This document shows, one piece after another, positions 1-12,834 of a stretch of DNA of 64,000 nt. This DNA is from an uncultured bacterium (lineage in GTDB: Bacteria > Cyanobacteriota > Vampirovibrionia > Gastranaerophilales > Gastranaerophilaceae), in NCBI GenBank assembly GCA_902777855.1, contig CACYVN010000001.1, positions 186,001 to 250,000 of the forward strand, given 5' to 3'. Below the pieces are notes generated by a model. The model made no database searches, was not told the origin of the DNA, and was given only the letters and a program-made list of their open reading frames with translations. How positions within the stretch are numbered: position 1 is the stretch's first letter; each line of letters begins with the position of its first letter. A program made the translations under genes and the position numbers.

Positions 1-69
1 GATGTTTCTGCGAACCAGAGTTATTCTGTGTATGCACCCTATTTTATTATTTTTAAAAGGAGATTAATT

Positions 70-525
70 ATGAAAAAACTCGCACTGGCACAAGATGCCT
101 TTAAACTCTATGCTGAAAAATTTATGTCGTTAGAAGATATCGCAAGGCAGCTTCATTTGAACGAAAGAACGCTTCGCCGGTGGAAAAAGTCTGATAACTG
201 GGAAACCAAAAGAGCTGAATATCTTCGGACTAAAACAACGTTACATTCGGATTTATATGATTTTACCCGCAGTTTAATAAATTCTATCGAGAAGGATATG
301 GAGAATAACGATAAAGTCGAGCCTGCAAGGTATTATGCCGTTACTAAAATGCTGAAATTGATTGGGCCGGTTAAATCTTATGAGGATGAAGTGATAAGTG
401 AAAAACAAAAGCTCCAAGAGGAAAAGCCGAAAGGTTTAACGCCTGATGTTATAAGAGAAATAGAAGAACGAATTCTCGGCATAACTCATGAAGAATTTTG
501 TGAACACGATTTGAACGCCGATTAA
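70..525 (+). CDS. Phage terminase small-subunit-like HTH protein
   Basis: The protein begins with a helix-turn-helix segment (about residues 15-35, with the stretch LEDIARQLHLNERTLRRWKK) followed by a charged helical body. This is the layout of DUF1804 / small-terminase-like phage proteins, which bind DNA and direct packaging by a large terminase. The ATG at 70 is chosen because AAAAGGAG lies at 55-62; an in-frame start at 28 has no ribosome site. No large terminase, portal or capsid gene follows, so it is either the edge of a prophage lying to the left of the window or an isolated remnant. The family assignment is by sequence style and is moderate. Confidence 0.55.
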   Translation: MKKLALAQDAFKLYAEKFMSLEDIARQLHLNERTLRRWKKSDNWETKRAEYLRTKTTLHSDLYDFTRSLINSIEKDMENNDKVEPARYYAVTKMLKLIGPVKSYEDEVISEKQKLQEEKPKGLTPDVIREIEERILGITHEEFCEHDLNAD

Positions 526-5216: not shown

Positions 5217-5855
5217 TTGACACAATTGAGTACATACAAAGTTAAACTTATTGCGAATGATCAAATTATTGAATATCTAAAAAGCAAAGATTCTGTTTTT
5301 GAAATGTTATTTGATAAATATGGATATGCTCGCCTTGAAAGAGAATCTGATATATTTGAATCAATTGTTTCAAATATAATCGGCCAGCAGTTGTCTAATA
5401 AAGTCAAACAAGTGATCTATAATAGATTTTTAAATTTGGTAAAAACTGTAACACCTGAAAGCATTTTAAATATTGATACTGAATTAATTAGACAGTGTGG
5501 AATATCTTATTCTAAAATTAGTTATATTAAGGAATTGTCAGAGAATATTTTAAATAATAATTATAACTTTAATAATTTAGATAAACTAAATGATGATGAT
5601 TTGATAAAAGAATTATGCAAAATAAAGGGTGTTGGTAAATGGACAGCCGAAATGCTTGCTCTTTTTTCATTTGGACGTGAAAATATAATTAGCTATGATG
5701 ATGTTGCTTTACGCAATGGGATTATAAAAGCAAAGGGTTACAAAAGTCTTACAAAACAACGATTTGAGCAATTAAGAAAAAAATATAGTCCATATTGTTC
5801 ATATGCTTCATTATATTATTATGCACATAATGATGATGAATTAAGATGGAAATAA
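5217..5855 (+). CDS. HhH-GPD DNA glycosylase, AlkA-like
   Basis: A 212-residue base-excision glycosylase of the HhH-GPD superfamily, closest in style to AlkA / 3-methyladenine glycosylase II. The helix-hairpin-helix is IKGVGKWTAE (about 136-145), and the catalytic Asp lies in SYDDVAL (D161/D162). IIGQQLS near residue 54 is also typical. There is no FeS-cluster Cys motif at the C terminus, so it is not an Nth/MutY type. It starts with TTG, supported by AAAGGAG nine bases upstream. Placed head-to-head with a C5 methyltransferase and near Vsr, it could remove thymine from T:G mismatches or repair alkylated bases; the substrate is inferred only from context. Confidence 0.85.
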   Translation: MTQLSTYKVKLIANDQIIEYLKSKDSVFEMLFDKYGYARLERESDIFESIVSNIIGQQLSNKVKQVIYNRFLNLVKTVTPESILNIDTELIRQCGISYSKISYIKELSENILNNNYNFNNLDKLNDDDLIKELCKIKGVGKWTAEMLALFSFGRENIISYDDVALRNGIIKAKGYKSLTKQRFEQLRKKYSPYCSYASLYYYAHNDDELRWK

Positions 5856-5877
5856 ATATCAAAATATATTTAGAATT

Positions 5878-6085
5878 ATCACAAACTCTGAGAATGAATT
5901 ATCAGTAAGTTTTAGAATTTGTATCAGAGAGTTTTGAAGTATTTCCCTCAAAACTTAAAAAGTTTGAGAATTCTCTCAAACTTCCGGGGGTACTTTTCTC
6001 AATCTCTCTGATAATTTACATAAAAAGTTTGAGAATTCTCTCAAACTTCCGGGGGTACTTTTCACAATCTCTCTGATAATTTACA
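5878..6085 (+). repeat. Structured interspersed repeat, copy A
   Basis: First of four related elements. It carries direct repeats built on TATCAGAGAGTTTT, an outer inverted pair TATCAGAGAG / CTCTCTGATA, and an inner perfect hairpin at 5960-5983 (10-base arms AAGTTTGAGA / TCTCAAACTT, loop ATTC). The 3' half is duplicated in tandem: 5957-6021 is repeated at 6022-6086 almost without change. The element starts ~22 bp after the glycosylase stop and has the same orientation as the flanking genes. The other copies are at 7761, 9610 and 10203. Confidence 0.9.
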
Positions 6086-6108
6086 CCCACCCAGGAAGTA
6101 TCATGGGT

Positions 6109-6280
6109 ATCTATATACACAAACTCTTAAAACTGCCTGGGTTGGACCCGAACCTGTGAAGTCTTAAAACGCTTGCTATGTCACTATTCATCTTAACTCG
6201 TTTTTGCAACAAGTCAAGTCTATCAACCAATAATACCGCATATTTCAGACATATTTTTTAACATGAGCTGAAAACGAACC
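6109..6280 (+). repeat. 172-bp repeat, copy 1
   Basis: This block matches 8031-8202 over exactly 172 bases with seven mismatches by eye. Both copies lie between a structured repeat element (A or B) and the next accessory gene, in the same orientation. One strand contains GGTTCGGGTCC, reminiscent of a tRNA T-loop, but the T-stem does not pair and the invariant A58 is missing, so it is not a tRNA gene. On the minus strand a 26-codon open frame from ATGAATAGTGAC is preserved in both copies. Function unknown. Confidence 0.9.
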
Positions 6281-6291
6281 GATGACAAAAA

Positions 6292-6336
6292 CTATCTTGA
6301 TTATGTATTGACATAATCAAGATAGCGTGTTATTTT
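6292..6336 (+). promoter_or_regulatory. Palindromic operator over a candidate promoter
   Basis: A perfect 14-base inverted repeat (CTATCTTGATTATG / CATAATCAAGATAG, 6-base spacer, 6292-6325) covers a TTGACA at 6308-6313. Seventeen bases downstream is TATTTT (6331-6336), a usable -10 element, just before the RHH/NifX-like gene. The layout is that of an autoregulated promoter; the repressor could be the ribbon-helix-helix segment of the downstream protein. A terminator reading (stem followed by T-rich sequence) is the alternative. Confidence 0.5.
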
Positions 6337-6342
6337 TTTATT

Positions 6343-6957
6343 ATGAAATGTTGTCAAAAATCTAATTGGGGCGGGAAACGCGAGATGGCAGGAAGAAAGA
6401 AAACCTGTCTTATAAAAGTGCCGTTTAATAGAAGAATAAACGAAAACATTTTAAATATTCTGCGAGATTACGCAAAAAGGCATAATCTTACAGATACGCA
6501 AGCTCTTGAAAGTGCAATTTTATTACAGAGTAACATAGAAAAATTAAGAGGAGATATGGTTATGAAAATTTGTATTCCGACAAGTGAGGGAAAATTATGC
6601 GGACATTTCGGGCATTGTGATTCTTTCACTTTTGCTGAAATTAATCCTGAAACAAAAGAAATTTTAACTATAGAAGAAAAAATACCAGAAGAAGGAATTT
6701 CTTGCCAGAGTGCTGCCTGGATTTCAGAACAGGGAGTAAGCAAAGTTTTGGCAGGCGGAATGGGCGGACGTCCTATGATGATGTTTGCACAAAACGGAGT
6801 TGAAGTTGTTGCAGGATGTCCTGAATTGCCGATTAGAGAAGTTTTAGAAAAATATATGGCAAATTCTCTTGAGACTGGAGTAAACGCATGCGGCGGCGAA
6901 GGTCATGATCACGCGCACTGCCACCACCATGGCGAAGGACATCATTGCAACCATTAA
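6343..6957 (+). CDS. RHH-like segment plus NifX/NifB-type domain protein
   Basis: One open frame carries two parts. Residues ~15-65 (LIKVPFNRRINENILN...TDTQALESAILLQ) have the strand-helix-helix pattern of ribbon-helix-helix DNA-binding proteins. From residue 74 on, the frame reads as a dinitrogenase iron-molybdenum cofactor (NifX/NifB C-terminal) domain: ICIPTSEGKLCGHFGHCDSF, GGMGGRPMMMF, AGCPELPIREVLEKY. It ends in a metal-binding His/Cys tail (GHDHAHCHHHGEGHHCNH). A strong AAGAGGAG (6546-6553) stands before an internal ATG at 6562, so the NifX-like domain may also be made alone. Possible starts are 6343, 6385 and 6562. Such domains bind iron or mixed metal clusters. The MBL hydrolase gene follows after 11 bp. 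Confidence 0.75.
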   Translation: MKCCQKSNWGGKREMAGRKKTCLIKVPFNRRINENILNILRDYAKRHNLTDTQALESAILLQSNIEKLRGDMVMKICIPTSEGKLCGHFGHCDSFTFAEINPETKEILTIEEKIPEEGISCQSAAWISEQGVSKVLAGGMGGRPMMMFAQNGVEVVAGCPELPIREVLEKYMANSLETGVNACGGEGHDHAHCHHHGEGHHCNH

Positions 6958-6968
6958 GGAGTTATATT

Positions 6969-7751
6969 ATGAAAATTCATCAAATCAGAAACGCAACAAT
7001 AATTGTAATTTATAACGATAAAAGATTTTTAATTGACCCATGGCTAATGCCGAAGGACTTTATGCCGGGGTTTGAGGGTGCAATGAATAGTGAGGTTAGG
7101 CAGCCAAGAGTGGATTTACCAAAGGATTTCGATATAAATCATTTACCCCTGGATGCGGTTATTCTAACCCATTTTCATCCTGACCATTTTGATGAATTTG
7201 CAGTAAATGCATTGGATAAAAATATTCCGTTCTTTGTTCAGAATGAAACAGATTTGAATATAATTAAAAATTTTGGGTTTAATGATGTTCGTATTGTTTC
7301 TGAAAACGGAACAGATTTTGAGGGTGTAAAACTATTCAAAACACAATGTCAGCACGGCAGACGTGAAGTTGTAAAACCGATGTGTGAGCAAATCGGAATG
7401 CCTTATGACGCTATGGGAATAGCATTTAAATCTAACAAAGAAAAAACATTATATGTTGCAGGCGATACAATTTGGTGTGAAGAAGTAAAACAAGCTATTG
7501 ATAAATTCAATCCTGAAATAATAATTATAAATGCTTGCGGAGCTACTGTATTGGTTGGCAAGGGTGAAAGGTTGATTATGGATATTGAGGATACAAAAGC
7601 AATATCAAAATATGCTAAAAATTCAACTATTATTGCAAGCCATATGGACGCTGTAAGCCACTTAACAGTTACAAGAGAAGATATAAAATCTCTAAAACTA
7701 AATAATGTTGTTGTGCCTGAAGATAATGAGATTTTGGAATTTAATAATTAA
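6969..7751 (+). CDS. MBL-fold metallo-hydrolase (UlaG-like)
   Basis: A 260-residue metallo-beta-lactamase-fold hydrolase. The zinc motif HxHxDH is H68-F-H70-P-D72-H73; later ligand regions are YVAGDT (about 172) and IIASHMDAVSH. The short form without extra domains resembles UlaG-type lactonases and many uncharacterised MBL proteins. ATG 6969 has AAGGAG at 6956-6961; an earlier in-frame start at 6945 would overlap the upstream gene and lacks a ribosome site. It is co-directional with the NifX-like gene and probably co-transcribed. The substrate cannot be inferred. Confidence 0.85.
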   Translation: MKIHQIRNATIIVIYNDKRFLIDPWLMPKDFMPGFEGAMNSEVRQPRVDLPKDFDINHLPLDAVILTHFHPDHFDEFAVNALDKNIPFFVQNETDLNIIKNFGFNDVRIVSENGTDFEGVKLFKTQCQHGRREVVKPMCEQIGMPYDAMGIAFKSNKEKTLYVAGDTIWCEEVKQAIDKFNPEIIIINACGATVLVGKGERLIMDIEDTKAISKYAKNSTIIASHMDAVSHLTVTREDIKSLKLNNVVVPEDNEILEFNN

Positions 7752-7760
7752 ACATATTTC

Positions 7761-7926
7761 AACACAAAACATATCGAAAAAGTATCAGTAACTTTGAGAA
7801 TGAATTATCAGAGAGTTTTGGAATTTGTATCAGAGAGTTTTGAAATTCTTCCCCGAAAACTTAAAAAGTTTGAGAATTCTCTCAAACTTCCGGGGGTACT
7901 TTTCTCAAACTCTCTGATAATCTACA
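7761..7926 (+). repeat. Structured interspersed repeat, copy B
   Basis: Full-length copy starting 9 bp after the MBL gene stop. Its ends form a perfect 15-base inverted pair, ATTATCAGAGAGTTT at 7804-7818 with AAACTCTCTGATAAT at 7907-7921, enclosing the inner hairpin AAGTTTGAGA / TCTCAAACTT at 7866-7889 and the CCGGGGGTACTTTT segment. Three ~22-base direct repeats (TATCAG-N-GAGTTTT type) make up the 5' half. Short open frames inside it are not conserved between copies. Confidence 0.9.
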
Positions 7927-8024
7927 GTCTATTTATACCGAAAGTCGGCAGAAAAATATTTTTTCAAATGTCCCATTAAAATAAAAATATACAATAATAA
8001 TCTACACTGATAATCTACAGTCAT
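7914..8024 (+). repeat. Duplicated element end bracketing ~80 bp
   Basis: The 3' terminal core of element B, CTGATAATCTACAGTC (7914-7929), recurs at 8008-8023. Between the two copies lies about 80 bp of AT-rich sequence that has no gene and is not found in the other copies. It is either a small insertion with a duplicated end or an empty unit of a cassette-like array. Confidence 0.6.
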
Positions 8025-8030
8025 ATGAGC

Positions 8031-8202
8031 ATCTATATACACAAACTCTTAAAACTGCCTGGGTTGGACCCGAACCTGTTGAGTCTTAAAACGCTTGCTA
8101 TGTCACTATTCATCTTAACTCGTTTTTGCAACAAGTCAAGTCTATCAAGCAATAATAACGCATATTTCAGACACATTTTTTAACATGGGCTAAAAACGAA
8201 CC
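8031..8202 (+). repeat. 172-bp repeat, copy 2
   Basis: Second copy of the block at 6109-6280, about 96% identical by eye and the same length. It lies 76 bp upstream of the HEPN-protein gene. Differences are single substitutions without gaps, which suggests recent duplication or constraint on length. The remaining gap to 8279 holds AT-rich sequence, a short inverted pair GTAGCA / TGCTAC (about 8243-8266) and the GAAAGGA ribosome site. Confidence 0.9.
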
Positions 8203-8278
8203 AAATACAATCATATTACTATAATTGTGTTAAAATAAGCGTGTAGCACGACTTATATATGCTACGAAAGGAATAATA

Positions 8279-9604
8279 ATGAAAAGTACAGATATACCTG
8301 CAGATGGAATAATTAAATTAAATAATGATACACAAATAAAAGTAAGACTTAGAGAAGATGAAAACAACAAACTAAAATTAGAGATTTTAGATAAACCAAG
8401 CAACATAAACCATTTTCACGGAGATTTAAAAGGTCACTTTGAAATAAATGGGGACAGTCTCAATATCACATTTTTAAACTGTAATAATCATCACCCACAA
8501 CAATACGAAATTGAATTTAGTCATCACATTGAATATTGGGATTTTGGGAATCCTAATAATACGCAGTATATTGATCTACGCTCAAAACGCAAAGAACTCT
8601 GTTTTAGGATAGAAAATATAAAACTCTGGCTATATCCAAGAACTAGAAATATATATGATAATTTGTGGAGCTATGTTGATAATCATGGGAATAAGGTTAA
8701 ATCAAGGCAAGATGCTGATTTTATAAAAATAAAAGTTGGAAATAAATCCAATGAATATGAGTTTACATATCAAGACAATAAATTTATATTATCAATAATT
8801 GATGAATTTCAGAGTAATTTTTTGAAGTATCCGGATGTAAATCTTTATCCGAGTTGTTATTTAAAACTTTCATCTGAAAAAGAACTTCCTGTACTATATT
8901 TATATCGTATGATTTTGAAAATACAAAAACTGTTCTCTTTATTTTTTAATCAAGTTGCTAATTTAACCTCAATATCTGAAGTAAAAAAGTTTGATTATTT
9001 TATAAAGTATGATATTTTACGGCCCAATCATAAATCCGATATCTTTGTCCCCTATTTTAATATTGACTATGAGGCTGTAAGTCAAAATTTAGGATCTATA
9101 TTACAAAAATGGTTTGAAATATATGATGAATATGAAATGGTCATAGATTCAATATGTAGTTACGAAACATCAAATGTATTATCATATGAAATTTCCAAAA
9201 AAGCACAGTTACTCGAAACTTTTGGGAATATAATTAATAAAGGAGCAAGTACCAGAAGTGATATTAAAGTTGCATTATCTCAATTAAATACAAATACTTT
9301 TAATAAGATTTTTCAACAGAGCGAAATCAAGTTTGATTTTGATATAAACGAATTGGGCAATACCTCAGAACAACAAATTTCCATTTTAAGTGAACAAATA
9401 ATGAATCTGCGTAACCATTCTATTCATCCATATAAATCAGGAAAATTAAAAACTCCTGCAGATGACAAGATAATTAAACCATTTGCAAGCGGTGATGATT
9501 TAGATATTTATGCAATTGATACACTTACACAGTGTTTATCAAAAGTCTTTATTGCCCTTATCTTACAAAAATTAGATATTGATAATTTGTATAATATTCT
9601 TTAA
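8279..9604 (+). CDS. HEPN-domain protein, ApeA-like candidate defence RNase
   Basis: A 441-residue protein with a beta-rich N-terminal half (about 1-200) and a helical C-terminal half. Near the C terminus is R378-N-H-S-I-H383, the RX4-6H motif of HEPN ribonucleases, placed between long helices as in HEPN domains. The two-part layout resembles ApeA-type proteins, single-gene anti-phage abortive-infection effectors with a HEPN nuclease at the C terminus; this protein is shorter than typical ApeA. ATG 8279 has GAAAGGA upstream. It stands alone between two structured repeats. The HEPN motif is visible; the ApeA link and defence role are inference. Confidence 0.6.
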   Translation: MKSTDIPADGIIKLNNDTQIKVRLREDENNKLKLEILDKPSNINHFHGDLKGHFEINGDSLNITFLNCNNHHPQQYEIEFSHHIEYWDFGNPNNTQYIDLRSKRKELCFRIENIKLWLYPRTRNIYDNLWSYVDNHGNKVKSRQDADFIKIKVGNKSNEYEFTYQDNKFILSIIDEFQSNFLKYPDVNLYPSCYLKLSSEKELPVLYLYRMILKIQKLFSLFFNQVANLTSISEVKKFDYFIKYDILRPNHKSDIFVPYFNIDYEAVSQNLGSILQKWFEIYDEYEMVIDSICSYETSNVLSYEISKKAQLLETFGNIINKGASTRSDIKVALSQLNTNTFNKIFQQSEIKFDFDINELGNTSEQQISILSEQIMNLRNHSIHPYKSGKLKTPADDKIIKPFASGDDLDIYAIDTLTQCLSKVFIALILQKLDIDNLYNIL

Positions 9605-9609
9605 AGAAC

Positions 9610-9772
9610 ATAAAACTTATCAAAAAAGTATCAGTTAGTTTGAGAGTGAATTATCAGGGAGTTTAAGAATTTTTATCAGTTAGTTTTGAAAGATTTCCCT
9701 CAAAACTTAAAAAGTTTGAGAATTCTCTCAAACTTCCGGGGGTACTTTTCTCAATCTCTCTGATAATCTACA
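9610..9772 (+). repeat. Structured interspersed repeat, copy C
   Basis: Full-length copy beginning about 6 bp after the stop of the HEPN gene. It includes the inner hairpin AAGTTTGAGA / TCTCAAACTT (about 9712-9735), CCGGGGGTACTTTT and the terminal CTCTCTGATAATCTACA. Its last base is only 7 bp upstream of the first codon of a decapitated ABC permease, so the element lies exactly at a rearrangement breakpoint. Confidence 0.9.
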
Positions 9773-9779
9773 TATAGCT

Positions 9780-10196
9780 ATGGCTTTAACAATGATTATG
9801 ACAGGGATAATTATAGTCTTTTTTAAAATTCCTTTTGTAGGTTCAGTATCTTTATTCCTCCTTTCTATGACAATATCATTACTTGCAATTGTCGGTGTGG
9901 GCTTATATATTTCAGCTATTAGCAATACGCAGCAGCAAGCAATTCTATCTGCTATGACTTTTATGATGCCTGCGGTTTTGTTATCAGGATTTATTTCGCC
10001 TATTGAAGATATGCCGATTGGTTTGCAATATATAACATACTTAGACCCTGTAAGATTCTTCATGGTGCTATCACGTGGAATATTCTTAAAAGGAATGGGA
10101 ATAAGTGATGTAATTGCAAATATAATCCCGCTAATAATAATTGCCACAATAACATTAACACTTGCAAGCAGAACATTTAAAAGAAAATTAGGATAA
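9780..10196 (+). pseudogene. 3' fragment of an ABC-2 type transporter permease
   Basis: The 138 residues match only the C-terminal third of ABC-2 family membrane permeases (YhhJ/YbhS style, about 370 residues when whole). Visible hallmarks are SNTQQQAILSAMTFMMPAVLLSGFISPIE, the LQYITYLDPVRFF loop and RGIFLKGMG, with four hydrophobic segments. The N-terminal membrane helix and extracytoplasmic domain are absent, as is any ATPase partner. The frame stays open into the preceding repeat element, without a ribosome site for the ATG. It is read as a truncated, probably non-functional relic cut at the edge of repeat copy C. Confidence 0.8.
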
Positions 10197-10202
10197 ATGT
10201 TA

Positions 10203-10367
10203 AACACAAAACATCTCAAAAAGTATCAGTAACTTTAAGAATGAATTATCAGAGAATTTGAGAGTTTGTATCAGGGAGTTTTGAAATATTTCCCTCAGAA
10301 CTTAAAAAGTTTGAAAATTCTCTCAAACTTCCGGGGGTACTTTTTTCAATCTCTCTGATAATCTACA
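10203..10367 (+). repeat. Structured interspersed repeat, copy D
   Basis: Fourth copy, beginning about 7 bp after the permease-fragment stop and ending with CTCTCTGATAATCTACA. The inner hairpin has one change (TTTGAAAATTCTCTCAAA), so the arms are slightly less perfect than in copies A-C. After it, 10368-10650 contains only a weak 67-codon open frame from a TTG at 10373 with no ribosome site; I see no supportable gene there. Confidence 0.85.
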
Positions 10368-10650
10368 ATAATTTGACCCATAAATTTGTCAACAATCGAA
10401 CTCTGAAAAATGGCATTATAAAAGGGATTGAAACTAATTCAACCCCTTATTTAAGAAAAAACTCCCCATTCGGGACAAAACTAGAAACAAATTTGATTGA
10501 TTTATACGAAAAAATTATTGATATTAATAACCTGAAAACCTTTAGATTACTTGAAAATTTTAAAATGGTTGCTTAATATCATTGTCAGATTGATAAATCT
10601 AATTTACTTATTAAAATAGACCAAATTATATTTTAATATGGTATCCATCG

Positions 10651-11433
10651 TTAAAAATCTTTACCATAGAAGTTAATAAGGTAATTTTTTAAATTATTTG
10701 CTTGTTGCTTAAAAACGATATAAGTTGCACCGCCGTTAATAACCGCACCCACAAAAGGAATAACCTTATTAGCGCTTTTTTCAAGTCCTTTTTTTGTCAA
10801 ATTTTTACCAAGTTTTTTTGCTAAATCTTTAAGTAATGGATACCAAGTTGTTGTTTTTGTTAAACTTTGTCTTACTATATTTTTAGCCTGTTTTTGTAAA
10901 GCATCTTTTGCTAAATTCCCTATATTATTCGCACCATTATTTACACTTAACATTACACACATAAATTGAAGTAATTTGAATTTTGTTTCATCATCAACTT
11001 CATCTTCCACATTTTTAATTTCAGGAAAACCATATAAATATAGTAATTTTTGCATAATACGTAATAGAAAACCATAATATTGACTTATATCAGCAATTAA
11101 TATTCCTGCAAAAACAGGTGCAGACACTATTCCTGGTGCTCCTAAGACTGCTGCGGTTGCGGTTGTAATGCTTCTTTCATATTTTATGCAATTGTCCGCA
11201 ATTTTATTAATTATATCAATCGGAATACCTGCGGAATAAGGGTTTGTTTCTATAGCCTTTTTAATAATTTCATCCGAATAATATTTTCTTAGTTCTCTCT
11301 TTAGAAACTTTTTTCTGTCAATGTTTATTAAGGGTGTATTTGACACATTACTAGTAATGTTTAATATAGTATCTGGAAGATTTTCTTCAATGATTTTCTT
11401 AATTTTTTTTATAAATTCATTTTTATTTTCCAT
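10651..11433 (-). CDS. EcsC-family protein
   Basis: A 260-residue protein resembling the EcsC family (named after a gene of the Bacillus ecs locus; molecular function unknown). Features are an N-terminal lysine-rich helix, two short hydrophobic or glycine-rich stretches around residues 90-115 (TTATAAVLGAPGIVSAPVFAGILIADI), and the C-terminal signature NKVIPFVGAVINGGATYIVFKQQ, typical of the family. AGGAAGG precedes the ATG. It probably associates with the membrane. It converges on the repeat-array genes and marks the right end of the array. Confidence 0.7.
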   Translation of the reverse strand: MENKNEFIKKIKKIIEENLPDTILNITSNVSNTPLINIDRKKFLKRELRKYYSDEIIKKAIETNPYSAGIPIDIINKIADNCIKYERSITTATAAVLGAPGIVSAPVFAGILIADISQYYGFLLRIMQKLLYLYGFPEIKNVEDEVDDETKFKLLQFMCVMLSVNNGANNIGNLAKDALQKQAKNIVRQSLTKTTTWYPLLKDLAKKLGKNLTKKGLEKSANKVIPFVGAVINGGATYIVFKQQANNLKNYLINFYGKDF

Positions 11434-11578
11434 TCGAAATCCTTCCTAATAATATTATACATCAACAGAATATTTTATAATGGCAAATTATTACTGTTAG
11501 TATTATTATACTATAAATTTTTATGTCTAATTCAACTTAAGAGTGTTTTGTAGTAGCATTGGTAAAAGGAGCAAGTAA

Positions 11579-12649
11579 ATGAAAACAAAAGATATTGAAA
11601 AATCACCTATTTATAACATGTCAATGTGTTCATTAGAAAACTTTCACACTTGTTTTTTAAAATGGCTTGGAAATGTTTATCCCAAAGAAACTATGGAATT
11701 GTTTTTAAACAATATCAATGAAGAAAATATAAAATTTAAAGACCAAGAAAAAGAAAACGACAACCGATATGATTTATGTGCAATAAAAGATAACGGAGAA
11801 AAAATTTTAATTATCGAAAATAAAATAAAATCATATCCGACAGAAGAACAAATTAAAAAATATCAAGAAGCCAATAAAAAAGTGCCATTAATTCTTTTAT
11901 CATTAGTACCTGCAGATAATATAAATTTACCCGAAGAGTGCAAGTTGACTTATGATGAATTGGCAAAAAGGATGCATAAAAAATTTGATAATAAAAATTT
12001 TAGTACAGAAGAAAAATATAATGAATATTTGATAAAAGACTATATCAGTGTCATTGAATCTCTTGCAGGAAGTTTTCCAAAAATAGATAGTGAAAAATAC
12101 GATTTCAATAACGGAGATATCAAAATTCCTGATGACTTTAAAGATATTTATAAAAAATACAGAATGTCAAAATTAAAAGAATTCGTCAAACAAAAACTCA
12201 AATCACAAGGCATTGACTTAAAAGAAGGAGATGAAATTGCTACTGATTTTAGCCGAAAAACAGCAATTTTAAATGTTATAGCATGCAAAAAATTCCAATT
12301 AGGAGAAAAAGCACTGCTATTTAGAATTCAAATTCAGGGTAGACAATACCGATACAGCATTATTTATGGAAATGAAAACGATGATAAATTAAGGGTATCT
12401 ATTGCAAGCAAACTGGCAGAAAATAATCTTTGGTTTATCGAATGTAAAGAGAAATACCCTAATGCCAAAAATTATAAAGATAAAGGCTTCTGTGGATATA
12501 AACCAAGTATTATATATAGGTACAAATATAGACCTATAAATGAAACTTGGTCATACGAACAAGTAGCGGATGCAATAGCCACGGATATCAAAAAATTAAA
12601 TACTAACAGAAACAAAATAGAAGAAACTATAAGCGAATGCATTAATTAA
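11579..12649 (+). CDS. PD-(D/E)XK nuclease-superfamily protein
   Basis: A 356-residue protein whose N-terminal third has the signature of the PDDEXK_4-like nuclease superfamily: D(R)YDLCAI followed by ILIIENKIKSYPTEEQIKKYQ, where the Asp and the E-x-K make up the active-site motif and the Gln-rich helix follows. The C-terminal part (about 190-356) is Lys- and Tyr-rich and may bind nucleic acid. AAAAGGAG precedes the ATG. Such proteins are common in defence islands, often without assigned function. A bidirectional terminator follows 72 bp downstream. Confidence 0.75.
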   Translation: MKTKDIEKSPIYNMSMCSLENFHTCFLKWLGNVYPKETMELFLNNINEENIKFKDQEKENDNRYDLCAIKDNGEKILIIENKIKSYPTEEQIKKYQEANKKVPLILLSLVPADNINLPEECKLTYDELAKRMHKKFDNKNFSTEEKYNEYLIKDYISVIESLAGSFPKIDSEKYDFNNGDIKIPDDFKDIYKKYRMSKLKEFVKQKLKSQGIDLKEGDEIATDFSRKTAILNVIACKKFQLGEKALLFRIQIQGRQYRYSIIYGNENDDKLRVSIASKLAENNLWFIECKEKYPNAKNYKDKGFCGYKPSIIYRYKYRPINETWSYEQVADAIATDIKKLNTNRNKIEETISECIN

Positions 12650-12721
12650 ACTCTTCTAATTTAATTGTTCGATTTGTTTAATTTTAATGATTTCTTTATA
12701 GACATATGGAAAACAAAAAAT

Positions 12722-12749
12722 AAAAGTTGCAATAATTATTGCAACTTTT
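12722..12749. terminator. Bidirectional intrinsic terminator
   Basis: A perfect inverted repeat, AAAAGTTGCAAT / ATTGCAACTTTT with an AATT loop, with A and T runs on both sides. It can end transcripts from the PDDEXK gene (plus) and from tRNA-Asn (minus). Confidence 0.85.
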
Positions 12750-12762
12750 ATTGTAATAAAAA

Positions 12763-12834
12763 CTCCCCAGGCTGGACTCGAACCAGCAACCCTTCGATTA
12801 ACAGTCGAATGCTCCGCCATTGAGCTACTGAGGA
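12763..12834 (-). tRNA. tRNA-Asn (GTT)
   Basis: The 72-nt minus-strand sequence folds as a tRNA. The acceptor stem is TCCTCAG / CTGGGGA with discriminator G73, as expected for Asn. The D arm contains AGCTCAATGGCGGAGC, the anticodon loop CTGTTAA gives anticodon GTT, and the T arm is GCTGG TTCGAGT CCAGC. The 3' CCA is not encoded. It marks the boundary between the accessory island and the chromosomal backbone. Confidence 0.97.

Follow-up and report, generated by a model that had tools for sequence, protein, structure and literature searches.

What kind of genetic unit results when unrelated genes are separated, again and again, by the same structured repeat? The question is raised by a 64,000-nucleotide stretch of DNA from an uncultured member of the Gastranaerophilaceae (assembly GCA_902777855.1, contig CACYVN010000001.1, positions 186,001 to 250,000), here called the window, in which a preliminary description had noted four such repeats between positions 5,878 and 10,367 and compared their arrangement to an array of integron cassettes. 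We find that gene blocks ending in this repeat are mobile gene cassettes, some of them opened by a second conserved element at the left. The repeat is termed here the right-end element (RE; 166 bp, with copy B as the reference and CTACA or TTACA as its fixed last bases) and the second element the left element (LE). The cassette-array reading therefore survives as far as mobile units of gene and site are concerned, but an integron is not supported, the left element had been overlooked, and genes on the opposite strand are frequent. The copies in the window are as follows; loci and genomes fetched for comparison carry L and G numbers.

5860 to 6020, plus strand: RE copy A, near-full (query positions 5-166), ending in ..GATAATTTACA; 88% identical to copy B by blastn and recovered by repeat search
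6021 to 6085, plus strand: RE stub of 65 bp, truncated at its 5' side, abutting copy A, with the same fixed end and 2 mismatches
6103 to 6288, plus strand: LE, the left end of the next unit, with a core like the 3' end of tRNA-Asn and a minus-strand promoter-like site at 6217-6190
7761 to 7926, plus strand: RE copy B (reference), with three direct repeats of about 22 bp and one inverted terminal repeat
8025 to 8210, plus strand: second LE copy, with a minus-strand promoter-like site at 8139-8112
9607 to 9772, plus strand: RE copy C, full length
10203 to 10367, plus strand: RE copy D, which starts like the RE behind a full-length permease gene in L098 (..AAACATCTCAAAAAGTATCAG)

The RE repeat is not a product of chance, because a search of the genome with copy B returns copies A, C and D at E-values of 1.3e-53 to 1.2e-59. 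These three are 88-90% identical to B; B, C and D match from end to end, A is near-full and is continued by the stub to 6085, and all four finish in CTCTCTGATAATYTACA, as had been described. Each begins 2-9 bp past a stop codon (the stops end at 5855, 7751, 9604 and 10196) rather than the 6-25 bp given before. The remainder of the window holds no further copy at E 1e-3, as claimed, although 7997-8019 contains two end-stubs, one of 10 nt and one of 13 nt. The sequence following each copy had been called unrelated, but A and B are both followed by LE. Outside the window, strong matches in the same genome are a partial copy at C1:171679-171762 and an insert-split copy at C1:316610-316899. The shared orientation of repeat and gene holds locally but not across loci: among near-full RE copies with an open reading frame of at least 100 aa within 300 bp (n=59), the strand of the frame agrees with that of RE in 29 and is the opposite one in 30, and gene orientation relative to RE follows no rule.

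The last bases of RE are nearly invariant across 22 aligned copies from many genomes, and three direct repeats of type TATCAGNNANTTTGAGA stand about 22 bp apart within it, with one inverted copy at the fixed end. On the strand described earlier, copy B folds strongly, as expected of inverted repeats (-45.4 kcal/mol, z -6.6). The inner hairpin was correctly noted in the window copies, but its left arm is replaced in L043, in one L049 copy and in one L030 copy, and RNAalifold gave no meaningful consensus for 53 RE copies on either strand. Because a subtype has lost a hairpin arm and no RNAalifold consensus was obtained, we read the repeats as putative protein-binding sites rather than as a conserved RNA. 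On the minus strand, copies A, B and C also have a hairpin and a T run that together resemble a terminator, and the stretch scanned holds 11 terminator-like sites against 1.5 in shuffles. No Rfam family reached its gathering score for RE or LE, and four weak Rfam E-value matches to the two elements were put down to chance. As a separate observation, an insert of about 110-117 bp occupies RE position 73-82 in L029 (9701-9819) and L041 (8502-8615) and has starts in L054 and L067 as well; in L041 its ends are complementary (GGATTTGC..GCAAATCC).

LE is a second conserved element and opens the next gene block. Its two window copies, found by repeat search to be 186 bp long and 94% identical, lie behind the stubs that trail RE A and B and ahead of the next gene. 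LE was matched in 11 of 98 genomes, and its left 110 bp show a mean column identity of 92% over 21 copies. The core, AAAACTGCCTGGGTTGGACCCGAACC, resembles the 3' end of tRNA-Asn, taken from the same side, with a score of 27, equalled by 1 of 2000 shuffles; a relative, LE2, shows a stronger likeness (score 33; 0 of 2000). On its minus strand LE has a promoter-like TTGACT-16-TAAGAT in which both hexamers are conserved and the spacer is not. Promoter-like matches are frequent in this stretch, which has 39 over 4.7 kb against 25.3 in shuffles, so the case for a promoter rests on this hexamer conservation. An RNA spanning the cassette junction, running from the leftward promoter-like site in LE to the terminator-like hairpin on the minus strand of RE, is possible on sequence grounds. 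Alignments of LE and RE, compared by eye, revealed no shared terminal repeat between them.

Two further features of LE may be recorded. LE copies read by eye have on the minus strand a 26-codon frame, MNSDIASVLRLNRFGSNPGSFKSLCI (about 8114-8033 in the window), which may only echo the conserved tRNA-like sequence. In L041 (13075-13199), L068 (5700-5786) and L109 (6428-6514) the T-loop-like core of LE contains an insert of roughly 85-125 bp (TCTTGCTGCGCTCGCATTAAACG..), and a similar sequence stands behind a partial tRNA-Asn copy in L086; this is perhaps a miniature element that targets T-loop sequences.

The evidence for mobility comes from the junctions. Rows that agreed in both the final 60 nt of RE and the first 30 nt of flank were dropped; the 103 RE rows kept still include several stubs from a single place and a few repeat entries for a single locus. 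When the first 12 nt after RE were compared within eight groups that share a neighbour gene, the right flank differed in every row (39/39): uracil-DNA glycosylase (UDG) superfamily 14/14, metallo-hydrolase 7/7, HsdR-like 5/5, HxlR 4/4, ABC permease 3/3, and FMN reductase, D12 methylase and KAP NTPase 2/2 each. A ninth group (C19) has 3 rows, one of them a duplicate locus. Flank bases at the fixed end vary freely, with no fixed target tetranucleotide. On the other side, the gene lies at -9 relative to RE position 1 in 7/7 hydrolases, at -5 or -6 in 3/3 permeases and at -224 in 4/5 HsdR-like genes, and other spacings recur as pairs (two each of -53, -63 and -68/-69). The window's own clear example is copy D, where a 5'-truncated permease gene, together with its own RE, abuts RE C. 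Identity with the full gene in L098 begins at base 2 past RE C (93% over 398 bp), tblastn matches the fragment at 92% to residues 245-370 of a 370-aa protein, and in G171 the full permease gene is followed by an RE that begins like copy D.

Whole blocks of LE, cargo and RE are common to several genomes and differ in where the shared segment begins. Here two further end families must be distinguished beside RE itself (T1), namely T2 (..GTCCCATTAAAACCCA) and T3 (..AACTGTCTATTTATA). The window and L177 share an LE-FeMoco-hydrolase-RE block from the LE edge (-1824), and the alignment of the window with L193 reaches also into the preceding RE copy; the LE-HipA-MGMT/UDG-RE block common to L205 and L109 starts some 26 bp to the left of LE; the segment common to L185 and L109 begins inside a T3 end; and the remaining hydrolase loci are shared only from about -1630 or -957. 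The shared left limits thus differ while the right end is fixed: the last base of RE (CTACA) is the boundary, and the left limit may coincide with LE or fall within a gene or a further end. In addition, three pairs of loci run collinear up to this boundary and then part, namely L206/L196 (2,579 bp at 99.7%), L181/L156 (1,479 bp at 99.3%) and L107/L108 (8,322 bp at 95.6%, to 4 bases past the RE end, which reads CCACA in L108); all the genomes concerned are drafts, so that a misjoin at the repeat is possible for each pair. Together, gene-RE junctions with new right flanks, shared blocks and parting pairs support the cassette behaviour first suspected. Random placement and a fixed gene order without gain or loss, which had been named as outcomes that would refute it, were not seen in the fetched loci.

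A second line of evidence is the presence of end scraps. We define a stub as a suffix of a family end with at most 10% mismatches, and we searched for stubs directly past 97 distinct RE ends that have at least 60 nt of flank, taking the expectation from 200 Markov-1 shuffles. Stubs of at least 6 nt follow 33/97 ends (0.38 expected), those of at least 10 nt 28/97 (0.09), of at least 12 nt 24/97 (0.01) and of at least 20 nt 17/97 (0.00). A control with the flank shifted by 37 nt (19/97 at 6 nt, 10 at 20 nt) is invalid, because a shifted long stub remains a suffix. Several stubs may stand in a row, as in L030, L035 and L109, and such rows mix families (L109 left of LE, L030, L052). In L045 and L046 there are scraps whose sequence departs from that of the full copy nearby, which means that local duplication does not account for all of them. 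A candidate for a further end family, 'T5', turned out to be the 3' end of a serine recombinase gene.

Segments and scraps of T1, T2 and T3 share the same places, directly left of LE or downstream of tRNA-Asn. The RE end abuts LE or the DNA just downstream of tRNA-Asn, in many cases a 3' remnant of a gene for a large serine recombinase (LSR). Among the loci compared, a family end lies at most 160 bp left of the LE core in 27 of 30 distinct LE copies (26 at 27-68 bp, one at 116 bp), and within 200 bp of tRNA-Asn in 27 of 48 distinct copies, at 28-182 bp and with the fixed end facing the tRNA. Longer family ends in reverse orientation were found at none of the LE or tRNA-Asn copies, with a pattern that omitted the 6-mer allowed in the forward one. 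The gene family of window 28-525 serves as a left marker in 5 of the 31 tRNA-Asn loci compared, and the genes between it and the tRNA vary.

The recombinase remnants show that this site loses DNA as well. In L073 and L081, for which no RE is listed, an LSR gene stands beside tRNA-Asn with its frame ending inside the tRNA; the L073 protein has Resolvase, Recombinase and zinc-ribbon domains. In L031, L045, L055, L104 and L115 only the last 40-58 LSR codons match, about 20 of them within the tRNA itself, and an RE end or stub stands ahead of the remnant; window 10368-10459 has the same appearance. RE or T2 ends abut such remnants in L031, L045, L055, L075, L076 and L115. In G028, G034 and G040 a search at E 1e-20 finds nothing of the LSR but its 3' remnant, from which we conclude that DNA has been lost as well as gained. 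As a side observation, 19 of the 28 loci L209-L236 have a tRNA in the interval from 200 bp before to 500 bp beyond the 3' end of the LSR relative; the tRNAs are those for Asn, Glu, Gly, His, Asp, Leu, Gln, Val and Ser, and several frames enter the tRNA.

We regard non-autonomous cassettes, joined beside tRNA-Asn or its LE mimic by an enzyme acting in trans, as the best explanation of these findings, and we give it slightly less than an even chance. The end-binding protein, the joining at tRNA-Asn or LE, and the role of LE as a further landing place are inferred parts. A protein would bind the RE repeats, as at a transposon end, and join the fixed RE end to the DNA just downstream of tRNA-Asn or of the mimic, while upstream DNA of varying length would be copied or transferred along with it. 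Scraps could then be the remains of aborted or eroded events. LE, carried by many units, would offer a landing pad for the next unit, and since many units bring such a mimic of their own, arrays would grow. End-joining, serine-recombinase action and adjacent deletion, the latter two taken up below as rivals, may operate side by side, since the junction gains DNA as well as losing it. A more far-reaching reading is a cassette system of its own kind, with the LE mimic at the left, a fixed end at the right, joining at tRNA-Asn or at a neighbour's mimic, capture of genes through an open left end and a record of scraps, in which the joining might also involve an RNA made across every junction between cassettes; we consider this possible, on the doubtful side.

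Several observations weigh against the trans-acting explanation. Gene-RE spacing is not constant in every group: it falls into classes among UDG genes (-29 six times, -75 four times, -78 twice, two outliers) and is inconsistent for HxlR. The assemblies are drafts with many RE copies at contig ends, and short-read misjoins could have produced some of the right flanks. Three of the 27 tRNA-Asn cases consist of the 6-mer TCTACA only, which is about chance level, and the loci were mostly fetched for RE, so that the tRNA-Asn and LE fractions are enriched values and not frequencies. One of the three genomes with only an LSR remnant, G028, is 73% complete. The empty-site check proposed earlier yielded no clean empty site, either through the L109 neighbour gene or through L107/L108: a right flank in G261 is 95.8% identical from 16 bp after RE, with a different left side, and the flank after the L108 RE was not found in L107. 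No candidate enzyme emerged from searches for RVT_1, integron integrase, TniQ and rve; small serine recombinases, casposase-like enzymes, HUH nucleases and the remaining DDE families were not searched. RVT_1 matched in 33 of 98 genomes and in none of the RE-rich G034 and G035 (99% and 98% complete; 7 and 8 RE matches), where divergent reverse transcriptases could be missed; rve was found in 3 of 20 RE-bearing genomes, one above cut-off; and TniQ gave 0/60 with controls also at 0, which makes that search uninformative. LSR relatives occur in 49 of 98 genomes, and the sought correlation of a recombinase with the repeat failed to appear, LSR relatives being present in 6/19 RE-bearing versus 11/27 RE-free genomes of the genus (a hand count in which the remnant-only G028, G034 and G040 were not scored as LSR-bearing). 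As a side observation, the partial RE copy that starts at C1:171679 has, at a distance of some 5 kb, a reverse transcriptase match with a 284-aa frame (G000:C1:166428-166964, in L028).

The main rival is that large serine recombinases, with tRNA ends as their attachment sites, move the units and that tandem accretion of integrase-less elements, comparable to cis-mobilizable elements (CIMEs), built the arrays. LE would then be an att site derived from tRNA-Asn with the crossover in its core, and RE no more than cargo, such as an origin or a former binding region of a recombinase. The tRNA likeness of the LE core, the tRNAs near LSR gene ends, the intact LSR genes that end inside tRNA-Asn and the six loci with RE or T2 ends abutting LSR remnants all suit this view, and accretion at att sites has been described for integrative and mobilizable elements (IMEs) and CIMEs (PMC5704250). 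Integrase-less units at an att-like site or tRNA are indeed what we find; however, the changing junction lies at CTACA, outside the LE core, and a crossover in that core leaves this boundary, the parting pairs and the end-stubs unexplained. Moreover, none of 11 aligned LE copies is a hybrid LE/tRNA site, and LSR presence does not track RE. We think this accretion rather unlikely, if worth keeping in view. Another alternative is end-anchored adjacent deletion, in which a one-ended recombinase at RE deletes rightward until it meets the essential tRNA or LE, leaving stubs of deleted units. The remnant-only genomes and the cut flank genes, which are the window permease and, by eye, a tyrosine-recombinase-like C-terminus in L106, fit such a process, and it would likewise yield pairs that part at the RE end. 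It would nevertheless need many deletions, each stopping within a few bases of an end, to account for the mixed-family stub rows in L109, L030 and L052, and it does not account for one gene-RE unit at many places; we judge it improbable.

Other mechanisms address particular features of the ends. RE could be a regulatory or terminator repeat spread with its neighbour gene by homologous recombination, with no dedicated enzyme; the minus-strand hairpin with its T run and the constant gene-RE spacing in several groups would suit this, and the draft state of the genomes would allow some right flanks to be misjoins. Exchange within RE would not, however, set a new flank exactly at the last base in 97 distinct junctions, nor would it produce suffix stubs of three families, and we find this account very improbable. 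Target-primed reverse transcription of an RNA ending in CUACA, copied downstream of tRNA-like genes, would give the fixed 3' end, the variable 5' end through truncation, the very short copies as abortive products, and sites downstream of a tRNA gene or tRNA-like sequence. Against it, RVT_1 is lacking in G013, G016 and G017 as well as in G034 and G035 (divergent enzymes may escape the model), RE shares its strand with the nearest gene in just 29/59 cases, and the RE structure has no covariation support and loses one arm in a subtype; it seems to us more improbable still. A true integron cassette array, finally, would share the gene with a downstream folded site and the array form, and the fold of copy B accords with it. 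Yet integron integrase (TIGR02249) was above cut-off in 0 of 60 relatives, the window's own genome included, the 5' ends are variable, and the attC core motifs (RYYYAAC/GTTRRRY), whose absence had been noted at the outset, were seen by eye in neither the first nor the last 30 bases of RE copy B. We give an integron next to no chance of being correct.

RE is not peculiar to this genome. It was matched in 22 of 98 relatives, and the search of Gastranaerophilales genomes recommended earlier found it in 69 of 383 genomes of the order and 18 of 52 genera, where scoring covered the two best candidates in each genome. When an 84,980-species collection was scanned with a pattern, 57 stretches were obtained; the taxon names given for them are Gastranaerophilales, Melainabacteria or Cyanobacteria bacterium, and most of the remaining stretches come from MAGs labelled as ruminant gut or RUG. 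Phage and plasmid collections gave no RE match; a scan of IMG/VR with the 17-base RE end gave six contigs. Separately, another repeat family of about 210 bp (..AAGTGTCCGAAAAAC..) occurs near arrays and tRNA-Asn in L028 (7762-7972), L049 (7604-7814), L114, L068 and L263.

The cargo is diverse. Pfam matches of 38 RE-adjacent proteins (38 of 40 clusters) include helicases, restriction proteins, KAP NTPases, DNA methylases, transporters, repair enzymes and families of domains of unknown function (DUF), with no recombinase among them; these statements cover the best 25 of 72 families. PADLOC matches, among the best 25 of 217, include type I restriction endonuclease, type II methyltransferase, DpdF, QatA, PifA, PsyrT and PD-Lambda-5, and such single-gene matches do not show complete defence systems. 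HipA, Fic and HNH proteins also occur within units. As a side observation, genes of the UDG superfamily, some fused to alkylguanine methyltransferase, are the commonest RE neighbours (upstream in 24 of 103 rows, for example L105, L107, L108, L109 and L205) and are divergent from RE. In the window itself, the remaining parts of the array are these:

6343 to 6957, plus strand: cargo gene for a dinitrogenase FeMo-cofactor domain protein (PF02579, Pfam 1.3e-18), also near RE in other genomes
6945 to 7751, plus strand: cargo gene for a metallo-beta-lactamase-fold hydrolase (PF12706, Pfam 5.2e-10)
7927 to 7937, plus strand: 11-nt stub of end family T3 (GTCTATTTATA)
7939 to 7981, plus strand: partial copy of end family T2 (positions 1-43 of the 47-nt query, 100%)
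7997 to 8019, plus strand: two RE end-stubs of 10 and 13 nt (ATAATCTACA, CTGATAATCTACA), read in the sequence
8279 to 9604, plus strand: cargo gene for a 441-aa protein with no Pfam match
9773 to 10196, plus strand: 3' fragment of an ABC-2 permease gene, its 5' side cut at the RE C end (BLAST, tblastn, Pfam)
10368 to 10459, plus strand: leftover LSR 3' end with a terminator-like inverted repeat, formerly beside tRNA-Asn
12763 to 12834, minus strand: tRNA-Asn(GTT), the anchor of the hot spot (ARAGORN, Rfam tRNA)

Window 10390-10446 has a 95% match in L031, L045 and L055, where the sequence is an LSR C-terminus, which the window frame at 10373-10576 resembles when compared by eye. At about 10469-12756 the window carries a 2.3-kb insert with an EcsC-like gene and a gene for 356 aa. 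It is bounded on both sides by the tRNA-Asn 3'-end sequence AAAAACTCCCCA and is apparently a separate integration at the tRNA site.

If our explanation is correct, bacteria that lack integrons would have a route to collect and shuffle defence and accessory genes, and the traffic would include restriction-modification parts, HipA, Fic, KAP NTPases, DNA glycosylases and efflux pumps. The tRNA mimic would tie this traffic to one tRNA locus. The scraps would then provide a sequence record from which the joining reaction may be worked out, and the conserved ends could serve as probes for the enzyme.

Several known systems may be compared with the RE system. Integron gene cassettes, with their attC site and IntI integrase, are likewise small gene units with a conserved end site of about 150 bp, in head-to-tail arrays that hold defence and toxin-antitoxin-like genes, and gene and site are mobile as a unit in our loci too. 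The RE system differs in its separate left element, its end scraps, its anchoring at tRNA-Asn or a mimic, and its variable 5' truncation, which integron cassettes are not known to show. One-ended transposition of the Tn3/Tn21 and IS91/ISCR kinds also combines one exact end with a variable other end and the capture of adjacent genes. Here, in contrast to HUH elements such as IS91 or Helitron-like ones, no fixed target tetranucleotide marks the fixed side, placement is beside tRNA-like sites, and no transposase was found by the searches described above. Tn7-like elements resemble the RE system in the several repeats of about 22 bp within an end, the TGT..ACA terminus and the right end beside a target gene; unlike DDE transposons of the Tn7, Mu or Tn3 type, however, RE has no matching left end that we could see, and the rve domain is rare.

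Among integrative elements, CIMEs come close (PMC5704250): integrase-less blocks pile up at one tRNA with att-like sequence between them, and in our loci the LSRs of other elements end in that tRNA. A precise CTACA end outside the att-like core, several end families and stubs of a few nucleotides distinguish the RE system from CIMEs. The strand-biased circularizing integrative elements are also an integrative class with unusual recombination; according to PMC10214605 they have a median size of 15.7 kb, carry their own int genes and belong to Gammaproteobacteria, unlike RE units. The outline of small gene units in arrays and of accretion at a tRNA is already known, whereas the literature searched (most subscription journals lying outside its coverage) held no description of the RE and LE ends, the tRNA mimic or the scraps.

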